DNA of 64,000 nt from Meridianimarinicoccus zhengii (GTDB taxonomy: Bacteria; Pseudomonadota; Alphaproteobacteria; Rhodobacterales; Rhodobacteraceae): contig NZ_QDFI01000017.1 of assembly GCF_003254465.1 (NCBI RefSeq), forward strand, positions 1 to 64,000, given 5' to 3'. How positions within the stretch are numbered: the stretch's first letter is position 1; each line of letters begins with the position of its first letter. This document shows, piece by piece, positions 8,131-21,253 of the stretch. The translations under genes were made by a program, and so were the position numbers. Under the pieces are notes generated by a model, which was not told the origin of the DNA, did no database searches, and saw only the letters and a list, made by a program, of their open reading frames with translations.

Positions 8131-8158
8131 TGCCGCCCGCCGCAAGGGGCAGGCGGCA
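8131..8158 (-). terminator. Hairpin downstream of atf
   Basis: Eleven-bp GC-rich stem with one G:T wobble (arms TGCCGCCTGCC and GGCGGGCGGCA on the minus strand) and a 6-nt loop, 6 bp after the aminotransferase stop. There is no T-run after it. It probably marks the end of the asnC-ssd-atf transcript or protects its 3' end. Confidence 0.5.
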
Positions 8159-8164
8159 GCGATG

Positions 8165-9535
8165 TCAGGCGAAGGTCTTGTCCATCGCGGCCGTGACCGC
8201 GGCGACGATCTCGTCAGCCTCGTCCGTGGTCAGGCACAGCGGCGGCGCGAAGCCTGCAATGTCGCCTTCGGGCATGGCGCGGGCGATCACGCCTTCCGCC
8301 AGAAGGTTCGACACGAAGCGCGCGCCGATCTTCTCGCTCGCGTCGAAGAACCGGCGGCTGTCGCGGTCGGCCACGAACTCGATGGCGGCCAGCATGCCCT
8401 CGCCGCGGATCTCGCCGACGTTGGGGTGCTCGCCGACGGCCTCGGTAAGGGCCTTGCGGAAATAGGTGCCCGTGGTGCCCGCGTTCCACACCAGCCCCAT
8501 GTCATCGATCAGCTTCAGGTTGGCGATCCCAGCCGCGGCCCCGATCGGGTGCGCCGAATAGGTCCAGCCATGTCCCAGCGGGCCGTTCTCGTCGCAGCCC
8601 TTCACCAGCACGTCCCACATGCCCTCGGCCACGATGGACCCCGACAACGGCGCATAGGCCGAGGTCAGGCCCTTGGCGATGGTGATGAGGTCGGGCTTCA
8701 TCCCGTAATGCTCGGACCCGAACATGGACCCGAGCCGCCCGAAGCCGGTCACGACCTCGTCCGCCACCAGAAGGATGTCGTGGCGCTTCAGCACTTCCTG
8801 GATCTTGTCCCAGTACCCGGCGGGCGGCGGCACGAGGCCGCCGGTACCCAGCACCGGCTCCCCGATGAAGGCGGCGATGGTGTCGGCGCCCTCGCGCGCG
8901 ATCAGCGCCTCCAGCTCGGCCACGCAATGGTCGGTGAAGGCTTCTTCCGACATCGAAAGGTCAGGCCGGCGGTAGTAGTACGGCGCCTCCGTGTGGATCA
9001 CCTGGCTCAGCGGCAGGTCGAACTTGTTGTGGAACGCCTTCAGCCCCGTGAGCGACCCCGTCACCAGACCAGAGCCGTGATAGCCGCGCCAGCGCGAGAT
9101 GATCTTCTTCTTCTGCGGACGCCCCAGGATGTTGTTGTAGTACCAGATCAGCTTGACGTTGGTTTCGTTGGCGTCCGACCCGCCGAGCCCGAAATAGACC
9201 TTGGACATGCCCTCGGGCGCGCGGTCGAGGATCATCTTGGACAGGGTGATCGACGCTTCGGTGCCGTGCCCGACATAGGCGTGGTAATAGGCCAGCTCGC
9301 GCGCCTGTGCGGCGATGGCCTCGGCGATCTCCTGTCGCCCGTAGCCCACGTTCACGCAGTAAAGCCCCGCGAAGCCGTCCAGCAAGCGGTTGCCGTCGCG
9401 GTCCTCGATGAACACGCCGTCGCCGCCCTGGATGATGCGGGCCATGGATTCGCCGCGCACATGGGTGCCGAGATGGGTCGAGGGGTGGAAGAAATTCTCG
9501 CGATCCCACTTGCCGAGCTGGTCGTTGGTCAACAT
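8165..9535 (-). CDS. atf: Class III aminotransferase of ectoine catabolism (diaminobutyrate transaminase)
   Basis: PLP-dependent class III (omega-amino acid) transaminase, 456 residues. Lys288 in LITIAKGLTSAYAPL is the Schiff-base lysine, Asp259 in ADEVVTGFGR binds the PLP ring nitrogen, and GYHGS at about 151-155 stacks on the cofactor. It is the last gene of an asnC-ssd-atf transcript beside a full ectoine uptake and degradation cluster. The same trio is found with ectoine genes in Ruegeria pomeroyi, so the likely reaction is removal of an amino group from L-2,4-diaminobutyrate to give aspartate semialdehyde (DoeD role). By sequence alone it could equally be a putrescine- or beta-alanine-pyruvate transaminase, and the context decides the call. 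The gap to ssd is 36 bp. Confidence 0.85.
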   Translation of the reverse strand: MLTNDQLGKWDRENFFHPSTHLGTHVRGESMARIIQGGDGVFIEDRDGNRLLDGFAGLYCVNVGYGRQEIAEAIAAQARELAYYHAYVGHGTEASITLSKMILDRAPEGMSKVYFGLGGSDANETNVKLIWYYNNILGRPQKKKIISRWRGYHGSGLVTGSLTGLKAFHNKFDLPLSQVIHTEAPYYYRRPDLSMSEEAFTDHCVAELEALIAREGADTIAAFIGEPVLGTGGLVPPPAGYWDKIQEVLKRHDILLVADEVVTGFGRLGSMFGSEHYGMKPDLITIAKGLTSAYAPLSGSIVAEGMWDVLVKGCDENGPLGHGWTYSAHPIGAAAGIANLKLIDDMGLVWNAGTTGTYFRKALTEAVGEHPNVGEIRGEGMLAAIEFVADRDSRRFFDASEKIGARFVSNLLAEGVIARAMPEGDIAGFAPPLCLTTDEADEIVAAVTAAMDKTFA

Positions 9536-9571: not shown

Positions 9572-11056
9572 TCAGGCCCAGTCCCGGCACACGTACTTGA
9601 TATCGGTGAAGGCTTCCAACCCGCTGCGCGCCCCTTCGCGCGCAAGGCCGGACTGTTTCATGCCGCCGAACGGGATCGGGGCGCCGGTGACCTTGGTGCG
9701 GTTGACCGCGACCATGCCGAATTGCAGCGCCCGGCTGAGCCGGAAGATCCGGCGCGGGTCCCCGCTGTGGACATAGGCCACGAGCCCGTATTCGGTGGCG
9801 TTGGCGCGGGCGACCGCCTCGGCCTCGGTGTCGAAGGGGGCGATGGCGGCGACGGGCCCAAAGGTCTCTTCCGCAAAGATCTTCGCGTCGGCGGGCACGT
9901 CCACAAGCACCGTGGGTTCATAGAAGAGCGGCCCAAGGGCCGACCGTTTGCCGCCCGCCACGCAGCGCGCGCCAAGGGCCAGCGCGTCGGCGACGTGGTC
10001 TTCCTGCTTTGCGACGGCGTTCTCGTTCATCAGCGGGCCAAGGTCGCAATCGTCCATGCCTGGACCAAGCGTCAGGGCCGCAACCCGGTCGGCGAAGCGC
10101 GCGCAGAACGCTTCATAGACGGACCGTTCGACAAGGAAGCGGTTCGCGCCAAGGCAGTCCTGCCCGGTGGTGGCGAACTTGGCCTTCACGGCCTCGTCCA
10201 CCGCGCGGTCGAGATCGCAATCGGCGAACACGAGGAACGGCGCATGCCCGCCCAGTTCCAGAACAAGCCGCTTCACCGTGTCGGCGGAGCGGCGGTAAAG
10301 ATGCCGCCCGACTTCCGTCGAGCCGGTGAAGGACAGGGCGCGGACGCGGGGGTCGGTTAGCCATGGCTCCACCACCTCGGGCGCGTGTCCCGTCACCACG
10401 TTGAACACACCGGCAGGCAGGCCCGCGCGGTCGGCAAGCTCGGCCAGCGCCAGCGCGGAATAGGGCGTTTCGGCAGATGGATGCACGACCACGGTGCAGC
10501 CCGCCGCCAGCGCCGCGGCGGCCTTGCGGGTGATCATGGCCGAGGGAAAGTTCCACGGCGTGATGAGGGCCGCAACGCCCACGGGTTCGCGCCACAACTC
10601 CATCTCTGCATCGGGCAGGTGCGAGGTCACGCCTTCGATGTTCGGGCGGCGGGCTTCCTCGGCATAGAATTCGAGGAAGGAGGCGGCATAGCCGATCTCG
10701 CCACGCGCTTCCGACAGGGGCTTGCCCTGTTCGGCCACCATGATGAGCGCGAGGTCCTCGCAATGAGCGATCATCAGGTCATGCCAGCGGCGCAGGGCGC
10801 GCGCGCGGTCCTGCGGCAGCATCACCGACCAGGCGTCGAACGCCGTCTGCGCCGCGTCCACGGCGGCCGCGCTCTCGGCCTCGGACAGGCGCGCGACATG
10901 GCCGATGCAGGCGCCGTCGGCGGGATCGGTGACGGGGAAGGTCGCACCGGACGCCGCGGCCACCCAGCGGTTGCCGATATAGGAAAACGACCGGATCAGT
11001 TTCGGATCGGAAAGGACGACGCCTTTCGGGCGGCCAAGCCGTTCGATCATGCTCAT
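9572..11056 (-). CDS. ssd: NAD(P)-dependent semialdehyde dehydrogenase of ectoine catabolism
   Basis: Aldehyde dehydrogenase superfamily, 494 residues, closest in pattern to succinate-semialdehyde dehydrogenases. The general base Glu267 lies in LELGGHAPFLVF and the catalytic Cys301 in TTGQDCLGANR. The substrate-fold signature PWNFPSAMI and the C-terminal PFGGMKQSGLAREG are present. In the ectoine pathway this role (DoeC/Ssd) oxidises aspartate semialdehyde to aspartate. Oddity: the coenzyme-binding motif usually read as V-K-P-S/A reads VVVHPSAETP, so a His (about 192) stands where most family members have Lys. The start at 11056 is preceded by AGGA at 8 nt; a second ATG at 11050 is too far from it. 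It lies between asnC and atf on one transcript. Confidence 0.88.
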   Translation of the reverse strand: MSMIERLGRPKGVVLSDPKLIRSFSYIGNRWVAAASGATFPVTDPADGACIGHVARLSEAESAAAVDAAQTAFDAWSVMLPQDRARALRRWHDLMIAHCEDLALIMVAEQGKPLSEARGEIGYAASFLEFYAEEARRPNIEGVTSHLPDAEMELWREPVGVAALITPWNFPSAMITRKAAAALAAGCTVVVHPSAETPYSALALAELADRAGLPAGVFNVVTGHAPEVVEPWLTDPRVRALSFTGSTEVGRHLYRRSADTVKRLVLELGGHAPFLVFADCDLDRAVDEAVKAKFATTGQDCLGANRFLVERSVYEAFCARFADRVAALTLGPGMDDCDLGPLMNENAVAKQEDHVADALALGARCVAGGKRSALGPLFYEPTVLVDVPADAKIFAEETFGPVAAIAPFDTEAEAVARANATEYGLVAYVHSGDPRRIFRLSRALQFGMVAVNRTKVTGAPIPFGGMKQSGLAREGARSGLEAFTDIKYVCRDWA

Positions 11057-11174: not shown

Positions 11175-11663
11175 TCAATCCTTCTGGAGACCGAGCAATT
11201 GTGCCAGCGGCAGGTCGCCCGACTTGACGTGCTTCGTGACGACATAGGTGAAGTAGCGCGCCATCCCGATGGGGGATTCGAGCAGCGTGTCGATCAGGCG
11301 CTGATAGCTGTTGATGTCGGATGTCACGACCTGCATCAGGTAATCGACCCCGCCGCCGATGGCCCAGCAGCCGACGATCTCGTCATGGCGGGCGACCGCG
11401 GCCTCGAACAGCCGGAAGCTCGCGGCCTTGTGGCTGTCCAGTTCCACGACGACGAATACCACGACATGGGCCGACACCAGCGACAGGTCGATATCGGCGC
11501 GGTAGCCACGGATCAGCCCCGCGTCCTCCAGACGTTTCAGCCGTTCCCAGCAGGGCGACGCGGACAGGTTCACCCGCCGCGCAAGCTCGGTCTTGGAGAT
11601 ACGCCCCTCGGACGCGAGGACGCGCAGGATCTGGATGTCGCGAGGGTCAAGCTGCACAGGCAC
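11175..11663 (-). CDS. asnC: Lrp/AsnC-family regulator of ectoine catabolism (AsnC/DoeX type)
   Basis: Small DNA-binding regulator, 162 residues. The N-terminal winged helix-turn-helix (RDIQILRVLASEGRISKTEL, then VNLSASPCWERLKRLE) is a standard Lrp/AsnC reading head. It is followed by a RAM ligand-binding/oligomerisation domain from about residue 65, including the GGGVDYLMQVV strand. The Pro-Cys-Trp-Glu-Arg-Leu pattern is typical of AsnC/DoeX proteins linked to ectoine genes. It probably uses a GTG start at 11663 and has no good Shine-Dalgarno site. It is divergent from enuR across only 61 bp and co-directional with ssd and atf. DoeX of Halomonas, its likely counterpart, binds DNA near ectoine degradation genes. 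Here it probably controls its own transcript and perhaps enuR. Confidence 0.85.
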   Translation of the reverse strand: MPVQLDPRDIQILRVLASEGRISKTELARRVNLSASPCWERLKRLEDAGLIRGYRADIDLSLVSAHVVVFVVVELDSHKAASFRLFEAAVARHDEIVGCWAIGGGVDYLMQVVTSDINSYQRLIDTLLESPIGMARYFTYVVTKHVKSGDLPLAQLLGLQKD

Positions 11664-11724
11664 AGGTCCGGTTACGGTCGGCGGAAATCCTTGTCAAACC
11701 TATCCGCGCGCGCGACATTGTGCC

Positions 11725-13116
11725 ATGTCAATTTGGCCGCCAGATCCGTCGACGCTGGAACGCCCCGCCTATCACTCGCTCGCCATGTGCCTGATGCGCG
11801 CGATCGACGCCGACGAATTGCGCCCGGGCACACGGTTGCCCACGCAGCGCGCGCTGGCGTTCGAGCTGGGCCTGAGCGTGCAGACCGTCAGCCGCGCCTA
11901 TGAGCAGCTTACCCGGCTGGGCATCATCACCGGTCATGTCGGGCGGGGCAGTTTCGTCGCGGCCCGGCAGACCGACGCGTCGCTGCCATGGCAGCGGCCG
12001 CCGGGCACCGATGCGCTGATCGACTGCGCGATGCTCACGCCGGTGCTGGGCGCGCCGCAGGCGGCGGCCATGTCACGGACCCTGCGCGACATGGGCGGCG
12101 ATATCGGCGAAGGCGTGCTGTTCTCGTTCCGTCCGCGGGAAACCCTGCGCGACCATTGCGCCGCTGTGCTGCCATGGCTGGCGCGCTGCGGACTGGACCT
12201 GGACGGGCCGGAGCGCGTCTTGCCCACCAACGGCAGCACCGCGGCGATGACCTGTGCGCTGATGACGGCGCTGAAACCGGGCGATCTTCTGGTGGCCGAC
12301 GCGATGGGGCACCACACCTTGCCGTCACTCGCATCCGCGCTGGGGCTGAAGCTGGAGGGGCTGGACGGCGACGCGCAGGGTATCCTGCCGGACGCCTTCG
12401 CGCGGATCTGCCGCCAGACGCGGGTGCGGGCCATCTATCTGATGCCCGCCGGTCTTGGCCCGACCGCCACGCCCATGGATGGGGCGCGGCGGCAGGCCAT
12501 CGTGGACATCGCGCGGGCGGAGAACGTGTGGATCATCGAAAACGATGCCTGGGGGCCGCTCGACCCCGACAGGGGTCCGCCGATCGCCGGGCTCGCGCCC
12601 GAGCGGACGTTCTATTTCACCGGCCTCACGAAATGCCTGCTGCCGGGCCTGCGGATCGGCTGGCTGGTGACGCCCGACGGCATGATCCATGCCGCGCGGA
12701 CCCGGCATCTCGTGTCGAACTGGATGGCGACGCCGCTGATCGCCGATATCGCCACGCGTTGGATGACGGATGGCACGGCGGCGGCGCTGCTCGATTGGCA
12801 GCGGGCGCAGCTTGCGCAGCGCAAGGCACTGGCTGCGCGGCTGCTGGCCAACGTCGCGCACCGGGTTTCACCCGCCGGGATGCATGTCTGGCTGCCGCTG
12901 CCCGACCGCTGGCGCGAAGATGGCTTCGTCACGCTGGCGCGCACCAACGGGGTCGGTGTCGCCGCCGGGGCCAATTTCGCGGTGCCCGGCACCGTGCATC
13001 TGCGCGGCGTGCGAATCTGCCTTGGCGCGGGGTCCGAAGCGGATATCGATACGGCGCTGCGGATCGTCGCGCGCCTCGTCGATGTCGCGCCCGAGGACGC
13101 GTTGCTGGCAATCTGA
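11725..13116 (+). CDS. enuR: MocR/GntR-type PLP-containing regulator of (hydroxy)ectoine uptake and catabolism
   Basis: Fusion regulator of 463 residues: an N-terminal GntR winged helix (about 15-80, ELRPGTRLPTQRALAFELGL, then VQTVSRAYEQLTRLGII) joined to a fold-type I aminotransferase-like domain (about 100-460). The PLP lysine is Lys303 in FTGLTKCLLPGLRIGW, at essentially the position (Lys302) reported for EnuR of Ruegeria pomeroyi. The pocket Asp is in WIIENDAWGPLD. EnuR is a repressor of ectoine import and degradation genes. It is relieved by catabolic intermediates such as N-alpha-acetyl-diaminobutyrate that react with the bound PLP. The ATG at 11725 gives the family N-terminus MSIWPPDP. 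No Shine-Dalgarno site precedes it, so the message may be leaderless. The uehABC operon follows 237 bp downstream. Confidence 0.92.
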   Translation: MSIWPPDPSTLERPAYHSLAMCLMRAIDADELRPGTRLPTQRALAFELGLSVQTVSRAYEQLTRLGIITGHVGRGSFVAARQTDASLPWQRPPGTDALIDCAMLTPVLGAPQAAAMSRTLRDMGGDIGEGVLFSFRPRETLRDHCAAVLPWLARCGLDLDGPERVLPTNGSTAAMTCALMTALKPGDLLVADAMGHHTLPSLASALGLKLEGLDGDAQGILPDAFARICRQTRVRAIYLMPAGLGPTATPMDGARRQAIVDIARAENVWIIENDAWGPLDPDRGPPIAGLAPERTFYFTGLTKCLLPGLRIGWLVTPDGMIHAARTRHLVSNWMATPLIADIATRWMTDGTAAALLDWQRAQLAQRKALAARLLANVAHRVSPAGMHVWLPLPDRWREDGFVTLARTNGVGVAAGANFAVPGTVHLRGVRICLGAGSEADIDTALRIVARLVDVAPEDALLAI

Positions 13117-13138: not shown

Positions 13139-13194
13139 CGTGCAGACCGTGCAGATTGTCATGGTTCAATATTCCAATTGACTTGATTCAAGTC
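13139..13194. promoter_or_regulatory. Operator/promoter region upstream of uehA
   Basis: The 237-bp gap between enuR and uehA contains three ordered elements. First is a direct repeat CGTGCAGA at 13139-13146 and 13148-13155. Second is an inverted pair TCAAT/ATTGA at 13166-13181 with a 6-nt spacer. Third is a 15-bp palindrome GACTTGA-T-TCAAGTC at 13180-13194. The segment 13160-13200 is clearly more AT-rich than its surroundings. A TTGACT at 13178-13183 could serve as a -35 element, in which case a repressor on the palindrome would block RNA polymerase. EnuR is the expected binder, by analogy with R. pomeroyi. Confidence 0.6.
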
Positions 13195-13353
13195 GTTTCA
13201 GACGGTTTGCGGATGACGGGCGGGCTGCCGATTTTGCGTGAAAGGCCCGGGGCGTCGCGGCTGTGACCGGCTTCCGGTGCGGGCCTGCGTTCGACCGGCA
13301 CAACCGCTGAGACACGGCAGACGCCGCCCGCGACAACAGGAAAGGTGCGTTCG

Positions 13354-14358
13354 ATGAAACGATCAAGTCTGCTGGCGGGAACCGCCGCCGTTGCGATGCT
13401 GGCCGGTGCGGCCGCGGCCGACACGTGGCGCTATGCCTTCGAGGAGTCGCTGCAGGAGGTGCAGGGCCAGTTCGCGCAGAAGTTCAAGGAACATGTCGAG
13501 GCGAATTCGGATCATACCGTCCAGCTCTTCCCCTTCGGCACGCTGGGCGAATCCGCCGACATCATGGAACAGGCGCAGGCGGGCATCCTGCAATTCGTGA
13601 ACCAGTCGCCCGGCTTCACCGGCGCGCTGATCCCCGAGGCGCAGGTGTTCTTCGTGCCCTACCTGCTGCCCACGGACCAGGAACACCTCGCCGCCTTTTA
13701 CGAGGAAAGCAAGGCGGTCAACGAGATGTTCCCGCCGCTCTACGAAGAGCAGGGGCTCGAGCTTCTGGTGATGTATCCCGAGGGCGAGGTGGCGATGACC
13801 ACCAAGGAACCGGTGCAGACCTGCACCGATCTCGACGAGGTCAAGTTTCGGGTGATGACCAACCCGCTGCTGGTGGAAAGCTACCGGGCGTTCGGTGCCA
13901 CGCCGACGCCGCTGCCATGGGGCGAGGTCTATGGCGCGTTGCAGACCAACATCATCCAGGGGCAGGAGAACCCGACATTCTTCCTGTATTCCACGAAGAT
14001 GTACGAGGTGACGGACCACATCACCTATACGGGCCACAACGTGTTCACGACCGCGCTGATGGCGAATGACGATTTCTACGAAGGGCTCGGGGACGAGGAC
14101 CAGCAACTGATCCAGGACGCGGTAGAGGTCGCCTATGACTTCATCGTCGAATACCAGGAAGGACTGGCCGAGCAGGAGCTTGCCAAGATCAAGGAAGCCA
14201 AGCCCGAGATGACCGTCACGGTGCTGTCCGAAGAGGAACGCGCCTGTTTCGTGGAGGCTGCGGCCGACGTGGAAGCGACCTTCATCGAGATGACCGGCGA
14301 CAGCGGCGCTGCGATCCTCGAACAGATGAAAGCGGATCTGGAAGCCACGGCACCCTGA
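13354..14358 (+). CDS. uehA: TRAP transporter substrate-binding protein for ectoine/hydroxyectoine
   Basis: Periplasmic DctP-type binding protein, 334 residues, with a Sec signal peptide ([20 protein letters not shown], cleavage near AAADT). The mature part starts [16 protein letters not shown] and carries the DctP signature around [20 protein letters not shown], whose Arg normally clamps the ligand carboxylate. Tryptophan in [13 protein letters not shown] and the aromatic NPTFFLYS stretch fit the aromatic cage described for UehA. The ATG at 13354 has AGGAAAGG 8 nt upstream; an ATG three codons earlier lies closer to that site. It is the first gene of uehABC-usp-eutABCD, and a 9-bp hairpin follows it before uehB. 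Substrate is inferred from cluster context and family. Confidence 0.92.
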
Positions 14359-14373
14359 GCCAGACCCGTCCGC

Positions 14374-14398
14374 GCCCCGCCGGTTCTGTCGGCGGGGC
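14374..14398 (+). other. Intercistronic hairpin between uehA and uehB
   Basis: Perfect 9-bp stem GCCCCGCCG / CGGCGGGGC with a 7-nt loop, 16 bp after the uehA stop and 30 bp before the uehB start. It has no T-run. Its position after a binding-protein gene suggests that it stabilises the uehA message or partly terminates, which would give more UehA than permease. Confidence 0.55.
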
Positions 14399-14428
14399 CA
14401 CCTCAACGCCCGTGCGAAAGGACCCGCC

Positions 14429-15019
14429 GTGGCCGAAAAGTCGCCCAGTGACCAGACCAGTGACGAACACGCGTCGAGCCTTCCGGGTATCCTCGGCACG
14501 ATCGACAGCCTGATCTCGCGCGTGGAATCGGTGATGCTCGCGGTCGGCGTCCTGCTGATGGCGACGAATACCATCGCCAACGTGATCGGGCGCTTCGTGT
14601 TCCAGAGCAGCCTGTTCTTCTCGGAAGAACTGAACCGCATCCTGATCATCCTGATCACCTTCGCGGGCATCAGCTATGCCGCGCGGCAGGGCCGCCACAT
14701 CCGCATGTCGGCGATCTACGACGCGATGCCGCCCGCCACGCGCAAGGCGATGATGGTGGTGATCGCGCTGGTGACCTGCGTGTTCATGTTCGGGCTGTGC
14801 TATTTCTCGGCAGCCTATATCGGCACGCAGGCCAGCCGGGGGCGGCTGTTGCCATCGCTCCAGATCCCCGTGTGGTGGACGCTGGTGTGGGTGCCTGTGG
14901 GGTTCTTCATGACCGGGATGCAATACCTGCTAACTGCCATCAAGAACCTGACGCAGAAGGACATCTACCTGTCCACGCGGGTCCTGGAAGGATACGACAA
15001 TGACGAAATCGAGATCTGA
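14429..15019 (+). CDS. uehB: TRAP transporter small permease (DctQ type)
   Basis: Small membrane subunit of the ectoine TRAP importer, 196 residues. Four hydrophobic spans are visible: about 37-57 ([20 protein letters not shown]), 70-90, 112-132 ([19 protein letters not shown]) and 150-170. This is the DctQ pattern. The start is GTG at 14429, with GAAAGGA 7-8 nt upstream. An acidic hydrophilic N-terminus of about 20 residues precedes the first span. The small and large permeases together couple uptake to the sodium gradient in this transporter class. UehC begins 12 bp after the stop. Confidence 0.88.
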
Positions 15020-15031
15020 GGGGACCGCACC

Positions 15032-16318
15032 ATGGCACTGACGATCTTTTCGGTCATGATCGTTCTTCTGCTCCTCGGGTTTCCGATGATGATCCCTCTC
15101 ATCACCGGGGCCTTCGTGGGCTTCTACACGATGCTGGGCGGTTTCTCGCAGATGGAAACCATGGTGCAGCAGTTCATGGCGGGGATCCGGCCGGCCTCTC
15201 TCATCGCCGTGCCGATGTTCATCTTCGCCGCCGACATCATGACGCGCGGGCAGTCCGCGGCCCGGCTGATCGACATGGTCATGTCCTTCGCGGGCCACCT
15301 GAAGGGCGGGCTGGCGATTTCCACCGCGGCGGCCTGCACGATGTTCGGCGCGGTGTCCGGGTCCACGCAGGCGACCGTGGTCGCGGTGGGCGGGCCGCTG
15401 CGTCCGCGCATGCTCAAGGCGGGCTACAAGGACAATTTCGTTCTGGCGCTGATCGTGAACGCGTCGGACATCGCGTTCCTGATCCCGCCCTCCATCGGCA
15501 TGATCATCTACGGGGTCGTGTCCAACACCTCGATCTCGGAACTGTTCATCGCCGGGATCGGGCCGGGGCTGCTCATCCTTGTGCTGTTCTCGATCTACGC
15601 GGTGATCTACGCCATCCGCAACGACGTGCCGACCGAACCGAAGTCGACATGGGGCGAACGGTTCGCGGCGATGCAGCGCGCGGTCTGGCCGCTCGGGTTC
15701 CCGGTCATCATCATCGGCGGGATCTATGGCGGCGTGTTTTCCCCGACCGAGGCGGCGGCGGCTTGCGTGTTCTACGCGCTCCTGCTGGAGGTCGTGGTCT
15801 TCCGGTCGATCAGCCTGGCCGATGTCTACAGGACGGCGCAATCCACGGGGCTGATCACGGCTGTGGTCTTCATCCTCGTGGCGGCGGGTGCCGCGTTTTC
15901 CTGGGTGATCTCCTTCGCGCAGATCCCGCAGGCGGTGCTTGGCGGGATCGGGATCGACGAGATGGGCCCTTACGGCGTGCTGTTCGTCATCTCCATTGCG
16001 TTCTTCGTGGGCTGCATGTTCGTGGACCCGATCGTCGTGATCCTCGTGCTGGTGCCGATCTTCGCGCCCGTGGTCCAGAGCGTGGGGCTCGACCCCGTGC
16101 ATGTGGGTATCATCATCACGCTGCAGGTCGCTATCGGGTCGGCCACGCCACCCTTCGGCTGTGACATCTTCACCGCCATCGCCGTGTTCAAGCGCCCCTA
16201 CATGGAGGTGGTACGCGGCACGCCGCCCTTCATCCTGATCCTGTTGAGCGTGGCGGTGCTGCTGATCTTCTTCCCGCAGATCGCGCTGTTCCTGCGCGAC
16301 CTCGCCTTCCCGCAGTGA
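15032..16318 (+). CDS. uehC: TRAP transporter large permease (DctM type)
   Basis: Large integral membrane subunit of the TRAP importer, 428 residues, the usual DctM length, with about a dozen hydrophobic spans. Family features include the N-terminal segment LLLLGFPMMIPLITGAFVG, the AACTMFGAVSGSTQATVVAVG loop (first re-entrant hairpin region) and the second half around FVGCMFVDPIVVILVLVPIF and GSATPPFGCDIF. It forms the transport core with UehB and receives substrate from UehA. It is separated from uehB by 12 bp and from the universal-stress gene by 11 bp, which fits one transcript. Confidence 0.9.
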   Translation: MALTIFSVMIVLLLLGFPMMIPLITGAFVGFYTMLGGFSQMETMVQQFMAGIRPASLIAVPMFIFAADIMTRGQSAARLIDMVMSFAGHLKGGLAISTAAACTMFGAVSGSTQATVVAVGGPLRPRMLKAGYKDNFVLALIVNASDIAFLIPPSIGMIIYGVVSNTSISELFIAGIGPGLLILVLFSIYAVIYAIRNDVPTEPKSTWGERFAAMQRAVWPLGFPVIIIGGIYGGVFSPTEAAAACVFYALLLEVVVFRSISLADVYRTAQSTGLITAVVFILVAAGAAFSWVISFAQIPQAVLGGIGIDEMGPYGVLFVISIAFFVGCMFVDPIVVILVLVPIFAPVVQSVGLDPVHVGIIITLQVAIGSATPPFGCDIFTAIAVFKRPYMEVVRGTPPFILILLSVAVLLIFFPQIALFLRDLAFPQ

Positions 16319-16329
16319 CGGAGGAGACG

Positions 16330-16767
16330 ATGTTCAAGCATATCCTCGTCCCCGTGGACGGATCGGACAACGCGCTGCGTGCACTGGACAAGGCCGTGGA
16401 ACTTTGCGGGATCGTCGGGGCGCGGCTGTCGCTCATCACCGTCTACCGGCATTTCTCGCTGCTGGAGGCGTCGTTTTCCATGGTGCGGCGCGAAGACCCC
16501 GGCCCGATGGACGACATCATGCGCGACTACGCAAAGGAAGTGGCCGAGCACGCCAAGGCCCATGCCATCGCGGCGGGCGCCGCGGATCCGCATGCCTTCG
16601 TCAAGAACGGTCCCGTGGCGCGCAGCATCGTGGGTTTCGCGCGCGACCACGACGTGGACCTGATCGTGCTGGGCGGGCGCGGCGTCGGATCGACGGAAAA
16701 CTACCTGCTGGGCAGCGTGTCGCACAAGGTCACGGGCACGTCCCCGTGCCCGGTGCTGGTGGTCTAG
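16330..16767 (+). CDS. usp: Universal stress protein linked to the ectoine TRAP transporter
   Basis: UspA-family protein, 145 residues, the normal length. It shows the ATP-binding pattern of the family: HILVPVDGSDNALRALDKAVEL at the start and the C-terminal VLGGRGVGSTENYLLGSVSHKV (the G-2x-G-9x-G(S/T) motif). In Halomonas the equivalent TeaD binds ATP and regulates the TeaABC ectoine transporter, and Ruegeria carries a usp at this position. A role in adjusting transporter activity is therefore likely but inferred. The ATG at 16330 has GGAGGAG immediately upstream; an upstream in-frame start would overlap the uehC stop. EutA begins 4 bp after the stop. Confidence 0.9.
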   Translation: MFKHILVPVDGSDNALRALDKAVELCGIVGARLSLITVYRHFSLLEASFSMVRREDPGPMDDIMRDYAKEVAEHAKAHAIAAGAADPHAFVKNGPVARSIVGFARDHDVDLIVLGGRGVGSTENYLLGSVSHKVTGTSPCPVLVV

Positions 16768-16771
16768 GGCG

Positions 16772-17548
16772 ATGGATCGTCACGGTGCGGTCACGCCGTC
16801 CGAAGTTGCCGTGGCACTCGATCCCGCGGACGCGGTGGCACGGCTGGGCCTGATCGTGCTGTCCACCGACCTGACAACCGAACGGGACGCGGCGCGGATC
16901 GTGCCGCCCGACCACGCGGCGGTGCATGTCGCGCGGGTGCCGTTCCAGAACCCCACGACACCCGAGAACCTGCGCCGCATGGCGCCGCTGCTGACGCGGG
17001 CGGCGGATTTGATCCTGCCGGGCGAACCGCTGGCGGGGATCTACTATGCCTGCACATCCGCGTCGGTCGTGATCGGCGATGCCGAGGTGGGCGAAGCGAT
17101 CCACGCCGCGCGCCCCGGTGTGCCCGTGGTCACCCCCACGGCGGCAAGCCTCGATGCCTTCGCCGCGCTCGGGGTGCGCCGGATCGCCCTGGTCACGCCA
17201 TATCTGCCCTGTACCACCGTCCCGATGGTCGGCTATTTCGAACGCGGCGGGCTGGAGACCGTGTCGGCCCATTGCCTGGGGATGGAGGACGACCGCGACA
17301 TGGCGCGCGTGTCGGCACAGACGATCATCGATGCGGTGCTGGCCGCCGACAGCGACGCGGCGGAGGCCGTGTTCCTGTCCTGCACGGCGCTTCCGGCGCT
17401 TGGGGTGATCGACACGCTGGAGGCGCGGCTGGGCAAGCCGGTGGTGACGTCGAACCAGGCGGGCCTTTGGCGGATGCTGCGCCATGCCGGGCTGATGGCG
17501 GATCGCGCGCCGGGGCGCATCTTCGCCACACCGCTGGGGGTGGCATGA
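16772..17548 (+). CDS. eutA: Asp/Glu racemase / arylmalonate decarboxylase-like protein, hydroxyectoine catabolism
   Basis: Protein of the Asp/Glu racemase superfamily (arylmalonate decarboxylase/maleate isomerase branch), 258 residues. Two catalytic-type cysteines are visible, Cys94 in YYACTSAS and Cys204 in FLSCTALP, each at the family position in a symmetrical two-domain fold. With EutB and EutC it is thought to convert 5-hydroxyectoine to ectoine by changing the hydroxylated carbon, but the individual steps are not well established. The start is 4 bp after usp. The stop overlaps the eutB ATG by 4 bp (ATGA), so the two are probably translationally coupled. Confidence 0.88.
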   Translation: MDRHGAVTPSEVAVALDPADAVARLGLIVLSTDLTTERDAARIVPPDHAAVHVARVPFQNPTTPENLRRMAPLLTRAADLILPGEPLAGIYYACTSASVVIGDAEVGEAIHAARPGVPVVTPTAASLDAFAALGVRRIALVTPYLPCTTVPMVGYFERGGLETVSAHCLGMEDDRDMARVSAQTIIDAVLAADSDAAEAVFLSCTALPALGVIDTLEARLGKPVVTSNQAGLWRMLRHAGLMADRAPGRIFATPLGVA

Positions 17549-18549
17549 GCGACCTGCGCGACCGGACGGTCACCATCGACGACATCGACGCGGCGCAACG
17601 GCGGCTCGCGGGCACGATCCGGCACACGCCGGTGGACCCCTCGCCGTCGCTGACCGAGCTGGCGGGCGTGCCCGTGCACCTCAAGCTCGAACACCACCAG
17701 CGGACCGGCAGCTTCAAGTTCCGCGGCGCATCGAACGCCGTGGCGCAACTGACGGAAGCGGAGCGCGCGGCGGGGGTCGTCGGCGTATCCACCGGCAATC
17801 ACGGGCGCGGGCTGGCGCGGGCCTGTGCCGACGCGGGCGTGCGCTGCATCATCGCAATGTCGGAACTGGTTCCGGCCAACAAGGTGGACGCGATCCGCGC
17901 GGAAGGTGCCGAGATCCGCATCGCCGGTCGCAGCCAGGACGAAGCGCAGCATCTGGTCGATGACCTTGTGGCGCAGGGCATGACCATGATCCCGCCCTTC
18001 GACCATCCCCAAATCATCGCCGGGCAGGGCACCTGCGGGCTGGAAATGGCGGATGCCATGCCCGACATGGCCTGCGCGCTGGTGCAGCTTTCGGGCGGCG
18101 GGCTGATCGCCGGTGTCTCCGCGGCGCTGAAGGTCCGCGTGCCGGGCGTGAAGGTCATCGGCCTGTCGATGGAACGGGGTGCCGCAATGCATGCGAGCCT
18201 CCATGCCGGACGCCCGGTCGAGGTCACGGAACTTCCTACCCTCGCCGACAGCCTTGGCGGCGGCATCGGGCTGGGGAACCGGTATACTTACCACATGGTC
18301 CGCGACCTTGTGGACGAGGTGGTGCTGCTGACCGAAGCCGAGATCGCGGCGGGCATCCGGCACTGCTATTGGCAGGAACGCCAGATCGTCGAAGGCTCGG
18401 GCGCGGTGGGCGCCTCGGCTCTTTTGTCGGGCAAGGTCGTGCCGGATGGGCCGACCATGGTGCTTCTGAGCGGCGGGAACATCGACATGGGCCTGCACCA
18501 CCGGATCGTGTCGGGCGAGGACGTGGACCTGATGGAGGCCCACACCTGA
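17545..18549 (+). CDS. eutB: Threonine dehydratase-like PLP enzyme, hydroxyectoine catabolism
   Basis: Fold-type II PLP enzyme related to serine/threonine dehydratases, 334 residues. Lys58 in RTGSFKFRGASNAV is the PLP lysine, STGNHGRGLA is the phosphate/carboxylate loop, and SGGGLIAGVSAA is the glycine-rich phosphate cup. It has no C-terminal ACT domain, so it resembles catabolic dehydratases. In the cluster it is assigned to the eutABC set, which is proposed to remove the hydroxyl of 5-hydroxyectoine. It starts within the eutA stop and its own stop overlaps the eutC ATG by one base (TGATG). Confidence 0.88.
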   Translation: MSDLRDRTVTIDDIDAAQRRLAGTIRHTPVDPSPSLTELAGVPVHLKLEHHQRTGSFKFRGASNAVAQLTEAERAAGVVGVSTGNHGRGLARACADAGVRCIIAMSELVPANKVDAIRAEGAEIRIAGRSQDEAQHLVDDLVAQGMTMIPPFDHPQIIAGQGTCGLEMADAMPDMACALVQLSGGGLIAGVSAALKVRVPGVKVIGLSMERGAAMHASLHAGRPVEVTELPTLADSLGGGIGLGNRYTYHMVRDLVDEVVLLTEAEIAAGIRHCYWQERQIVEGSGAVGASALLSGKVVPDGPTMVLLSGGNIDMGLHHRIVSGEDVDLMEAHT

Positions 18550-19541
18550 TGCCTGCCATCGCCGTGCTGACGGAACCCGACCTGCGCCGGATCGTGCCGC
18601 TGGACCTTGCCGCGGTGGACGTGGTGGAGGGCGCCTTTCGCGCGCTTGCGGGGGGTAAGGTCGTGATGCCGCCCGTGCTGTCCATGGCAATCGCCGAGTT
18701 CAATGGCGAGGTGGACGTGAAGACGGCTTATGTGCCGGGGCTGGACGCCTTCGCGCTGAAGGTGTCGCCGGGCTTCTTCGACAATCCCAAGCAGGGTCTG
18801 CCGTCCACATCGGGCCTGATGATCCTGTTTTCCGTGCGCACCGGCCTGTTGCAGGCGCTGCTGCTCGACAACGGCTACCTGACCGATATCCGCACCGCTG
18901 CCGCGGGCGCCGTGGCTGCGCGGCATCTTGCACGGGCGGATGCGACCCGGGTGGCGGTGCTGGGCGCGGGCACGCAGGCACGGATGCAGGTGGAGGCGCT
19001 TTGCCGGGTCCGTCCCATCGCCAGTGTGCGGGTCTGGGCACGCAGTTCCGACGCCGCGCGGCGGCTGGCGGCGGGGCTGTCCGCGGATCTCGGGCTTGGC
19101 GCGGTGGCGCGTGTGGACGCGCGGGATGCCGTGGCCGGCGCCGACATCGTCGTGACCACCACGCCCGCGACGGTACCCATCCTGATGGCGGACTGGCTGG
19201 AACCCGGCCAGCATGTCACCGCCATGGGCTCCGACCAGCACGGCAAGGGGGAGCTTGACCCCGCCTGCCTGACCCGCGCGGATCTCTATGTGCCCGACCG
19301 GCTGGAACAGACCCGCATCATGGGCGAGTTGCAGGGCGCAATCGCTGCCGGATTGGTCGCACCCGACGCATCCTTCCCCGAGCTTGGCGCGGTAATCACC
19401 GGCACAGCGCCGGGCCGCACCAGCCCGCACCAGATCACCGTGGCCGACCTGACCGGCACCGGGGTTCAGGACACCGCCATCGCCACCCATGCCCTCGCCC
19501 GCGCCAGAAACGCGGGTCTGGGCACCACTTTCGAAAGCTGA
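18549..19541 (+). CDS. eutC: Ornithine cyclodeaminase / mu-crystallin-like protein, hydroxyectoine catabolism
   Basis: NAD(P)-binding protein of the ornithine cyclodeaminase/mu-crystallin family, 330 residues. The Rossmann glycine motif VAVLGAGTQARMQVEAL lies at about 134-150. The upstream substrate-site region contains the family Lys in FALKVSPGFFDNPKQGLPS, and LLDNGYLTDIRTAAAGAVAA matches the typical R-T-A-A segment. It works with EutA and EutB, probably on the imine or ring intermediate of hydroxyectoine conversion. The ATG at 18549 overlaps the eutB stop by one base. The stop is 3 bp before eutD. Confidence 0.88.
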   Translation: MPAIAVLTEPDLRRIVPLDLAAVDVVEGAFRALAGGKVVMPPVLSMAIAEFNGEVDVKTAYVPGLDAFALKVSPGFFDNPKQGLPSTSGLMILFSVRTGLLQALLLDNGYLTDIRTAAAGAVAARHLARADATRVAVLGAGTQARMQVEALCRVRPIASVRVWARSSDAARRLAAGLSADLGLGAVARVDARDAVAGADIVVTTTPATVPILMADWLEPGQHVTAMGSDQHGKGELDPACLTRADLYVPDRLEQTRIMGELQGAIAAGLVAPDASFPELGAVITGTAPGRTSPHQITVADLTGTGVQDTAIATHALARARNAGLGTTFES

Positions 19542-19544
19542 TCC

Positions 19545-20732
19545 ATGGCCATCGTCGATACCTTCCGTTTCTCGGACGCCGAGTATGAATCCCGTCTTTC
19601 CCGCGTGCGCGCCGCGATGGAGGCGAAGGGGATCGACACGCTCATCACGTCGGACCCGTCGAACATGGCGTGGCTGACGGGGTATGACGGCTGGTCCTTC
19701 TACGTCCACCAGTCGGTCATCGTGGGGCCTACGGGCTACCCGGTGTGGTTCGGGCGCGAACAGGACGCGCAGGGCGCGCTGCGCACCGTCTACATGGAAG
19801 AGCCCGACATCATCGGCTACCCGGACTATTTCGTGCAGTCGTCCGAACGGCACCCGATGGATTACCTCGCGGCCAAGCTGACCGAACGCAACTGGCACAC
19901 CGGCCGGATCGGCGTGGAGATGGACAATTACTGGTTCTCGGCCAAGGGGTACGCGGCGCTCAGCGCAGGGCTGCCGGATGAACTGGTGGACGCCACGAAC
20001 CTCGTGAACTGGCTGCGCGGCCCGAAATCGCCCGCCGAGCTGGACCGGATGCGCAAGGCGGGCAAGATCGTGGAACGGATGCACCAGCGCATCGTCGACA
20101 AGGTCGAACCGGGGATGCGCAAATGCGATCTGGTGGCCGACATCTACGACGCCTCGCTCCGCTTCGACGAGGAATGGGGCTTCGGCGGCGACTATCCCGC
20201 CATCGTGCCGCTGCTGCCGTCGGGCGCCGATGCCGCCGCCCCGCACCTGACATGGGACGACAAGAAGATGGCCACGGGCGAGGGCACGTTCTTCGAGATC
20301 GCGGGCTGCTTTCGCCGCTATCACTGCCCGCTGTCGCGCACGATCTTCCTCGGCAAGCCGACGCAGGCGTTCCTCGATGCGGAAAAGGCTGTGCTGGAAG
20401 GTATGGAGGCGGGTCTGGAGGCCGCGAAGGCCGGCAACATGTGCGAGGATATCGCCATCGCCTTCTTCAACGTGCTCCAGAAATACGACATCGTGAAGGA
20501 CAACCGCACCGGCTATCCGATCGGGCTGTCCTATCCGCCGGACTGGGGCGAACGGACCTGTTCGCTGCGACCCGGCGACCGGACGATCCTCAAGCCCGGC
20601 ATGACCTTCCATTTCATGACCGGGTTGTGGATGAACGACATGGGGTTCGAGATCACGGAAAGTATCGTGATCGGCGAGGACGGGCCGGAATGCCTGGCGA
20701 ACGTGCCGCGCAGGATGATCGTCAAGGACTGA
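19545..20732 (+). CDS. eutD: Ectoine hydrolase (M24 peptidase-like fold)
   Basis: Ring-opening ectoine hydrolase (EutD/DoeA), 395 residues, of the M24 creatinase/aminopeptidase-P-like family. It cleaves ectoine to N-acetyl-diaminobutyrate isomers, which also act as signals for EnuR. The N-terminal creatinase-type domain (about 1-160, TLITSDPSNMAWLTGYDGWS) and the pita-bread C-terminal domain (about 165-395) are both present. Segments FFEIAGCFRRYHCPLSRTIF and the later MGFEITESIVIG are at family positions, and the usual M24 metal ligands are not all visible, as reported for this subgroup. In characterised clusters eutE, the deacetylase partner, follows directly. Here the next gene is an unrelated DUF302 protein on the other strand. 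Confidence 0.92.
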   Translation: MAIVDTFRFSDAEYESRLSRVRAAMEAKGIDTLITSDPSNMAWLTGYDGWSFYVHQSVIVGPTGYPVWFGREQDAQGALRTVYMEEPDIIGYPDYFVQSSERHPMDYLAAKLTERNWHTGRIGVEMDNYWFSAKGYAALSAGLPDELVDATNLVNWLRGPKSPAELDRMRKAGKIVERMHQRIVDKVEPGMRKCDLVADIYDASLRFDEEWGFGGDYPAIVPLLPSGADAAAPHLTWDDKKMATGEGTFFEIAGCFRRYHCPLSRTIFLGKPTQAFLDAEKAVLEGMEAGLEAAKAGNMCEDIAIAFFNVLQKYDIVKDNRTGYPIGLSYPPDWGERTCSLRPGDRTILKPGMTFHFMTGLWMNDMGFEITESIVIGEDGPECLANVPRRMIVKD

Positions 20733-20764
20733 GGTCCGCGGATGCGGCGCCCGCGTGCCGTACG

Positions 20765-21253
20765 TCAATCGGCGGTGGCGCGGGCGGCGATGGCGTCGAA
20801 GCGCGTGTCCAGATCCGCCGCGATGTCGGCCAGCGCAGAACCCCCTTCGTCCTGGTAGGGCGCGAAGACGAAGCTCGGTTCCTTCCAGCTCAGCGTGGCG
20901 GTGCCGTCTTCGCTCTCGGTCACGTAGAACCGTATCGGGGCCTCGATCATGGCGGCCGTGCTCAGCCCGAGGATGCGCACGGCGAAGTCGTTGTTGAACA
21001 CGCCCAGCACGCGGTTTTCGGGGATCTCGATACCGCGTGCCCGCGCCGCGCCCGTCGGTCCTGCCTCGGTCACGATGCCCATCCCCTCGGCGGTCACGGC
21101 GGCGCGCAGCCGGTCGAGCAGGTCGGCATGGGCAAGGTCGGTGTCGATGACCCGCCAGCCAGCGCGGGGTGCGAGGTCCGCTGCCGCGCCCCCCGACGCC
21201 ATAGCGACGACGGCGGTGCAGGCGGCAAGCGCCTTCAGGACGTTTCTGAACAT
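20765..21253 (-). CDS. DUF302 domain protein with signal peptide
   Basis: Periplasmic or lipid-facing protein of unknown role, 162 residues. It has an N-terminal signal peptide (FRNVLKALAACTAVVAMASG, cleavage near GAAAD). The rest matches the DUF302 pattern: a helix-rich start DLLDRLRAAVTAEGMGIV and the strand-turn IEIPENRVLGVFNNDFAVRIL, followed by VTESEDGTATLSWKEPSFVF. DUF302 proteins are often found near redox or heavy-metal stress genes, but no function is established. It is convergent with eutD across 32 bp and lies 111 bp from the membrane-protein gene downstream. Confidence 0.75.
   Translation of the reverse strand: MFRNVLKALAACTAVVAMASGGAAADLAPRAGWRVIDTDLAHADLLDRLRAAVTAEGMGIVTEAGPTGAARARGIEIPENRVLGVFNNDFAVRILGLSTAAMIEAPIRFYVTESEDGTATLSWKEPSFVFAPYQDEGGSALADIAADLDTRFDAIAARATAD

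Follow-up and report, generated by a model that had tools for sequence, protein, structure and literature searches.

In the described pathway of ectoine degradation, the ectoine hydrolase EutD (DoeA) is partnered by EutE (DoeB), an N-alpha-acetyl-L-2,4-diaminobutyrate deacetylase of the AstE/AspA fold (TIGR02994). The initial annotation of this locus stated that the two proteins form a complex; PMC8739950 describes a joint action of EutD and EutE through transient contacts, and no stable complex of them was seen in vitro. Degraders have been counted by the adjacency of eutD and eutE, which gave 363 genomes in the dataset behind PMC8739950, and the survey in PMC13188858 focuses on genomes with EutD, EutE and EutB. 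Putative clusters without eutE have been reported in Bacillota, where they contain abgB, and others in Thermodesulfobacteriota, and they are called provisional (PMC13188858). The open-access literature that we searched does not report any deacetylase of the ArgE type for the breakdown of ectoine, and our claim of novelty is limited to that literature.

The window, i.e. the whole stretch of 64,000 nucleotides analysed here, carries a nearly complete cluster for the utilisation of ectoine and hydroxyectoine (Table 1), in which doeD, ssd and asnC are located on the minus strand, while enuR, uehABC, usp, eutA, eutB, eutC and eutD are located on the plus strand. The EutD protein has 395 aa, of which residues 6-395 are spanned by the TIGR02993 match, and it is a canonical ectoine hydrolase by family membership. 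The ssd gene shares 76-80% identity with the cluster ssd genes of near relatives. At the thresholds used, the genome contains a single eutD and a single doeD, both of which are inside the window. The initial annotation had placed a convergent DUF302 gene right behind eutD, and both family assignments bear this out. Since these two genes are contiguous, eutE is not at its usual place, and the DUF302 gene itself is outside the ectoine pathway.

Table 1. Features of the ectoine cluster and its borders in the window, in order of position
Feature	Position	Strand	Evidence
doeD/atf, aminotransferase	8165..9535	-	NF005684 817 bits (cut-off 687)
ssd/doeC, aspartate-semialdehyde dehydrogenase	9572..11056	-	Aldedh 527.9 bits; TIGR01780 567.8 bits, below its cut-off
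asnC (doeX)	11175..11663	-	Lrp/AsnC Pfam domains; adjoins ssd in relatives
enuR, MocR-type ectoine regulator	11701..13116	+	NF052286 578.6 bits (cut-off 480)
candidate EnuR operator ATTGTCATGGTTCAATATTCCAATTGACTTG = ATTGTCATGGTTCAAT-ATTCC-AATTGACTTG	13155..13185	+	enuR-uehA gap; putative function
uehABC TRAP transporter	13345..16318	+	DctP, DctQ and DctM Pfam matches; conserved cluster position
uehA	13345..14358	+	
uehB	14429..15019	+	
uehC	15032..16318	+	
usp	16315..16767	+	PF00582 103.5 bits
eutA	16772..17548	+	TIGR02990 290 bits, slightly below the cut-off of 318; cluster position
eutB	17542..18549	+	TIGR02991 493.2 bits (cut-off 413.35)
eutC	18537..19541	+	TIGR02992 520.2 bits (cut-off 471.65)
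eutD/doeA, ectoine hydrolase, EutE-partnered type (tree)	19545..20732	+	TIGR02993 714.8 bits (cut-off 613)
DUF302 gene, convergent, in the place where eutE would follow	20765..21253	-	PF03625 32.8 bits (cut-off 23)

To the same annotation the window seemed to hold no deacetylase of the EutE type, and we found none there either: a permissive tblastn search of the window with an EutE protein was empty (best E 0.47), so that no remnant of eutE is visible. Its suggestion that eutE might lie elsewhere found no support in the whole-genome search, in which nothing exceeded the TIGR02994 cut-off of 402.7 bits, and the family-wide search gave no EutE for this genome either. The top scorer (68.3 bits) is a generic AstE/AspA-domain protein on contig C35, beside a DEAD-box helicase. 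Of the 11 closest EutD relatives from other genomes (at least 82% identity), eight come from genomes that lack EutE, such as those of Fluviibacterium aquatile, Jannaschia seosinensis, Palleronia marisminoris, Palleronia abyssalis and Oceaniovalibus, which indicates that the absence of eutE is no assembly artefact in general. In genome G415, for instance, the order is eutD-asnC-ssd-doeD, and eutE is cleanly absent from its usual interval between eutD and asnC.

We consider it probable that EutE has been replaced here by a non-homologous M20 protein of the ArgE type, encoded away from the cluster and predicted to act as the deacetylase. Its gene is the sole NF005710-type ArgE gene of the genome (contig C201, positions 8138-9298) and belongs to a distinct clade, which we named ArgE*. 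With 449.4 bits on NF005710 (cut-off 412) and 353.7 bits on TIGR01892 (cut-off 297.7), the protein is a member of the ArgE family; the closest solved structure is E. coli ArgE (7RSF), and in the alignment with it the M20 metal-site and catalytic motifs GHSD, CDMKG, DEE, GEPT and AHK are all intact. In the tree, ArgE* proteins including that of the window genome are united in a single clade (SH-aLRT 100) that is distinct from the other ArgE paralogs of the family, and the two closest to the protein of the window genome (L241 and L242) are both encoded in or beside ectoine genes. Nine residues (T134, C178, E180, F185, G192, V249, I250, P262 and N313) are fixed in 25 of 25 ArgE* proteins and are rare or absent in 44 others. 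G192 stands in place of a serine that all of the 44 other ArgE proteins compared have, and is a simple annotation marker for ArgE*. Acetyl-ornithine, the usual substrate of ArgE, is longer than N-alpha-acetyl-diaminobutyrate by a single methylene group.

In the eutD regions of two genomes of the family without eutE (G318 and G155), an ArgE-family gene lies directly after eutD and is 62-64% identical to the gene on C201. A search for ArgE-family and doeD genes in 79 genomes, together with the DNA around them, was consistent with this arrangement. In the one congeneric genome compared (G329), the ortholog of argE* (82% identical) lies beside eutD in an ectoine cluster with the order rpsB> tsf> luxR< argE< eutD< eutB> eutC> doeD> (arrowheads give the orientation of the preceding gene). 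The order on C201 of the window genome is argE> luxR> tsf< rpsB<, and in Fluviibacterium it is doeD< argE> luxR> tsf< rpsB<. The rpsB-tsf-luxR chromosomal locus of argE* is the same in the window genome, G329 and Fluviibacterium. Besides, the ArgE* gene of Jannaschia seosinensis is found just past doeD within the main cluster, and relatives of ArgE* stand beside eutD, doeD or asnC in at least 10 further genomes.

In two genomes (G008 and G009; loci L246 and L247), genes that by eye resemble those of cyanophycin synthetase, cyanophycinase and isoaspartyl peptidase are situated between argE* and the ectoine cluster, and another apparent cyanophycin synthetase gene is near eutD at L198; the aspartate derived from ectoine may be linked to cyanophycin. 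At L273 (G058) and L262 (G019), proteins of a sister group of ArgE* (42-46% identity) were found, whose genes adjoin eutB-eutC-asnC-doeD, or eutA and an EutD-like gene, and this group may extend the replacement further.

For the co-occurrence of the two deacetylase types, the sample consisted of 396 genomes in 352 genera of the Rhodobacteraceae in a broad sense, the family being assigned from named neighbours. EutD-type proteins, called at an E value of at most 1e-120 and including matches below the TIGR02993 cut-off (EutD2) that are assumed to be ectoine hydrolases, were present in 255 genomes, EutE in 53 and ArgE* in 166. The 255 EutD-plus genomes contain EutE only (51), ArgE* only (163), both (2) or neither (39), an exclusion with Fisher P=2.6e-26, uncorrected for phylogeny. 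ArgE* was found in 165 EutD-plus genomes and in only 1 EutD-minus genome (P=1.7e-43, likewise uncorrected for phylogeny). When EutD was limited to matches over the curated cut-off (71 genomes), 26 genomes were without EutE, 18 of which have ArgE*. Where the position could be checked, the gene next downstream of eutD is argE* in 49 of 76 genomes, with a median gap of 14 bp, and eutE in 45 of 50, with a median gap of 12 bp (in two more, eutE is immediately upstream). ArgE* takes the genomic slot that is held elsewhere by EutE. The 39 EutD-plus genomes with neither enzyme imply that some degraders use something else or do not degrade ectoine; these genomes may have a third deacetylase, or their EutD-like proteins may serve a different purpose.

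In the eutD tree, the EutD proteins adjacent to ArgE* make up one clade, and EutE-partnered EutD falls outside it. The tree requires the EutE status to have changed several times independently, and eutE has repeatedly gone from genomes that retain ArgE*. The window EutD is among those of the EutE-partnered type, though its genome has ArgE* only, which suggests that the two EutD lineages are able to switch deacetylase partners and that this genome joins an incoming cluster, from which eutE was lost, with an argE* left over from an older cluster. Two clusters with reciprocal loss would be the simplest history, in the following proposed order of events. An older cluster (eutD2-argE*, eutB-eutC-doeD) would once have been located at the rpsB-tsf-luxR locus, and a second one of the EutE-partnered type, that of the window, would have been acquired at another place. 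Each cluster would then have lost genes made redundant by the other: the new one eutE, and the old one eutD2, eutB, eutC and doeD, leaving one complete, non-redundant gene set split over two loci. A lone EutD 87% identical to that of the window, with no further ectoine genes in its vicinity, occurs at L024, in a MAG labelled Deltaproteobacteria/Myxococcota; it may reflect horizontal transfer or a mis-binned contig.

Taken as a pathway, ectoine would be imported by UehABC and converted by EutD to N-alpha-acetyl-diaminobutyrate, the putative substrate from which ArgE* on C201 would release diaminobutyrate, and DoeD followed by DoeC would carry the flux on to aspartate. ArgE* probably serves in most of the ectoine-degrading relatives of the window bacterium as well. 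The proposal is based on gene content, gene positions, orthology, co-occurrence and the conservation of catalytic residues. Genome context, phylogeny and co-occurrence give good support to the use of a different deacetylase, which the initial annotation had listed among its options.

Four other explanations were weighed against ArgE* acting directly after EutD. The one that survives best, itself unlikely, holds that the acetyl group is removed last: DoeD and DoeC would act on acetylated compounds, from N-acetyl-diaminobutyrate through N-acetyl-aspartate-semialdehyde to N-acetyl-aspartate, as in the acetylated arginine pathway, and ArgE* or the AspA-domain protein of C35 would then take the acetyl off. 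DoeD does belong to the acetylornithine-aminotransferase class (PMC5924519), an AstE/AspA-cat protein is present on C35, and the order of steps is not told by co-occurrence data alone. However, ArgE* genes occupy the EutE slot directly after eutD, the same DoeD family is found in genomes with EutE, whose pathway is expected to pass through free diaminobutyrate, and proteins of the C35 type are found in EutE-plus and EutE-minus genomes alike.

There is little probability that the pathway goes from ectoine to N-acetyl-diaminobutyrate and no further, with this intermediate serving as inducer of EnuR or as an osmolyte. EutE is missing genome-wide, and EnuR binds N-alpha-acetyl-diaminobutyrate with high affinity (PMC8739950), both of which would fit such a truncation. 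Yet this genome and most of the eutE-less near relatives have kept doeD, doeC, asnC and eutABC as well as the transporter, and the genome keeps a putative deacetylase gene, argE*, whose clade tracks EutD almost perfectly; the stop at the intermediate that the initial annotation had considered is accordingly disfavoured.

It is about as improbable that another hydrolase supplies the activity, either the M20D amidohydrolase on C167, which is related to DoeB2, or the AstE/AspA-domain protein on C35. The former scores 316.8 bits on the DoeB2 model NF038260 and the latter is distantly EutE-like (68 bits), but the C167 score is far below the DoeB2 cut-off of 550, which none of 28 EutD-bearing genomes passes, and similar scores were obtained everywhere, EutE-plus genomes included. 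Neither protein adjoins ectoine genes in the regions examined. DoeB2 as a replacement and the C35 protein as a diverged EutE were rejected on these scores and on the equivalents of the C35 protein in EutE-plus and EutE-minus genomes, respectively. Other M20 proteins (DapE, carbamoylase-type, dipeptidase and M42) were set aside by family assignment or by reading of their sequences. Least credible of all is a true eutE in an assembly gap, which the division of the 4.6 Mb assembly into 220 contigs might allow, but the assembly is 99.97% complete, which makes such a loss unlikely for this one genome, and eight near relatives are also without eutE.

An M42 peptidase of the NAGGN-system type (TIGR03106, 566 bits; cut-off 398) is encoded on C128 of the window genome (L016), and the genome may therefore make the osmolyte N-acetylglutaminylglutamine amide.

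The candidate EnuR operator in the window resembles blocks between enuR and uehA at three other loci (L033, L041 and L089), and its 16-mer core occurs only once in the window, where 0.03 occurrences are expected by chance. A copy of this putative motif was looked for upstream of argE* on C201 and was not found; this result and the location of argE* on another contig than eutD count against the proposed replacement. In five eutE-less clusters of the Jannaschia and Palleronia group (L026, L027, L029, L030 and L031), no enuR is detectable by asnC and uehA, so regulation there probably differs.

For the family as a whole, it is likely that the main second enzyme of ectoine degradation is a dedicated ArgE-type M20 protein, found about three times as often as EutE, that the two EutD lineages swap partners, that the EutD-EutE pair is a minority there, and that surveys by adjacency miss most degraders. 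Should ArgE* be the deacetylase in use, well over half of the genomes with EutD in this family, to which many marine bacteria belong, would escape such surveys, and genes annotated as arginine enzymes would become ectoine-pathway genes. Besides, the question arises whether EutD needs a specific contact with EutE, because an EutD of the EutE type appears here to work with an unrelated partner.

In comparison with known systems, the putative Bacillota ectoine clusters with abgB (PMC13188858) are alike in having another hydrolase gene and no eutE, while they involve another enzyme subfamily and another phylum, and ArgE is unmentioned in that paper. DoeB2 (NF038260, M20D amidohydrolase type) is also a stand-in for EutE from the M20 superfamily, already named by NCBI, but it belongs to a different M20 subfamily and none of the tested genomes exceeds its cut-off. 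With the acetylornithine deacetylase ArgE (NF005710, TIGR01892; 7RSF), ArgE* shares the family, the fold and the metal-site motifs, whereas it differs in its separate clade, its nine fixed residues and its linkage to ectoine genes. With EutE/DoeB, it would share the reaction, the slot directly after eutD and the partners EutD, DoeD and DoeC, whereas ArgE* is an unrelated M20 metallohydrolase and hardly ever occurs together with EutE in genomes of the family.
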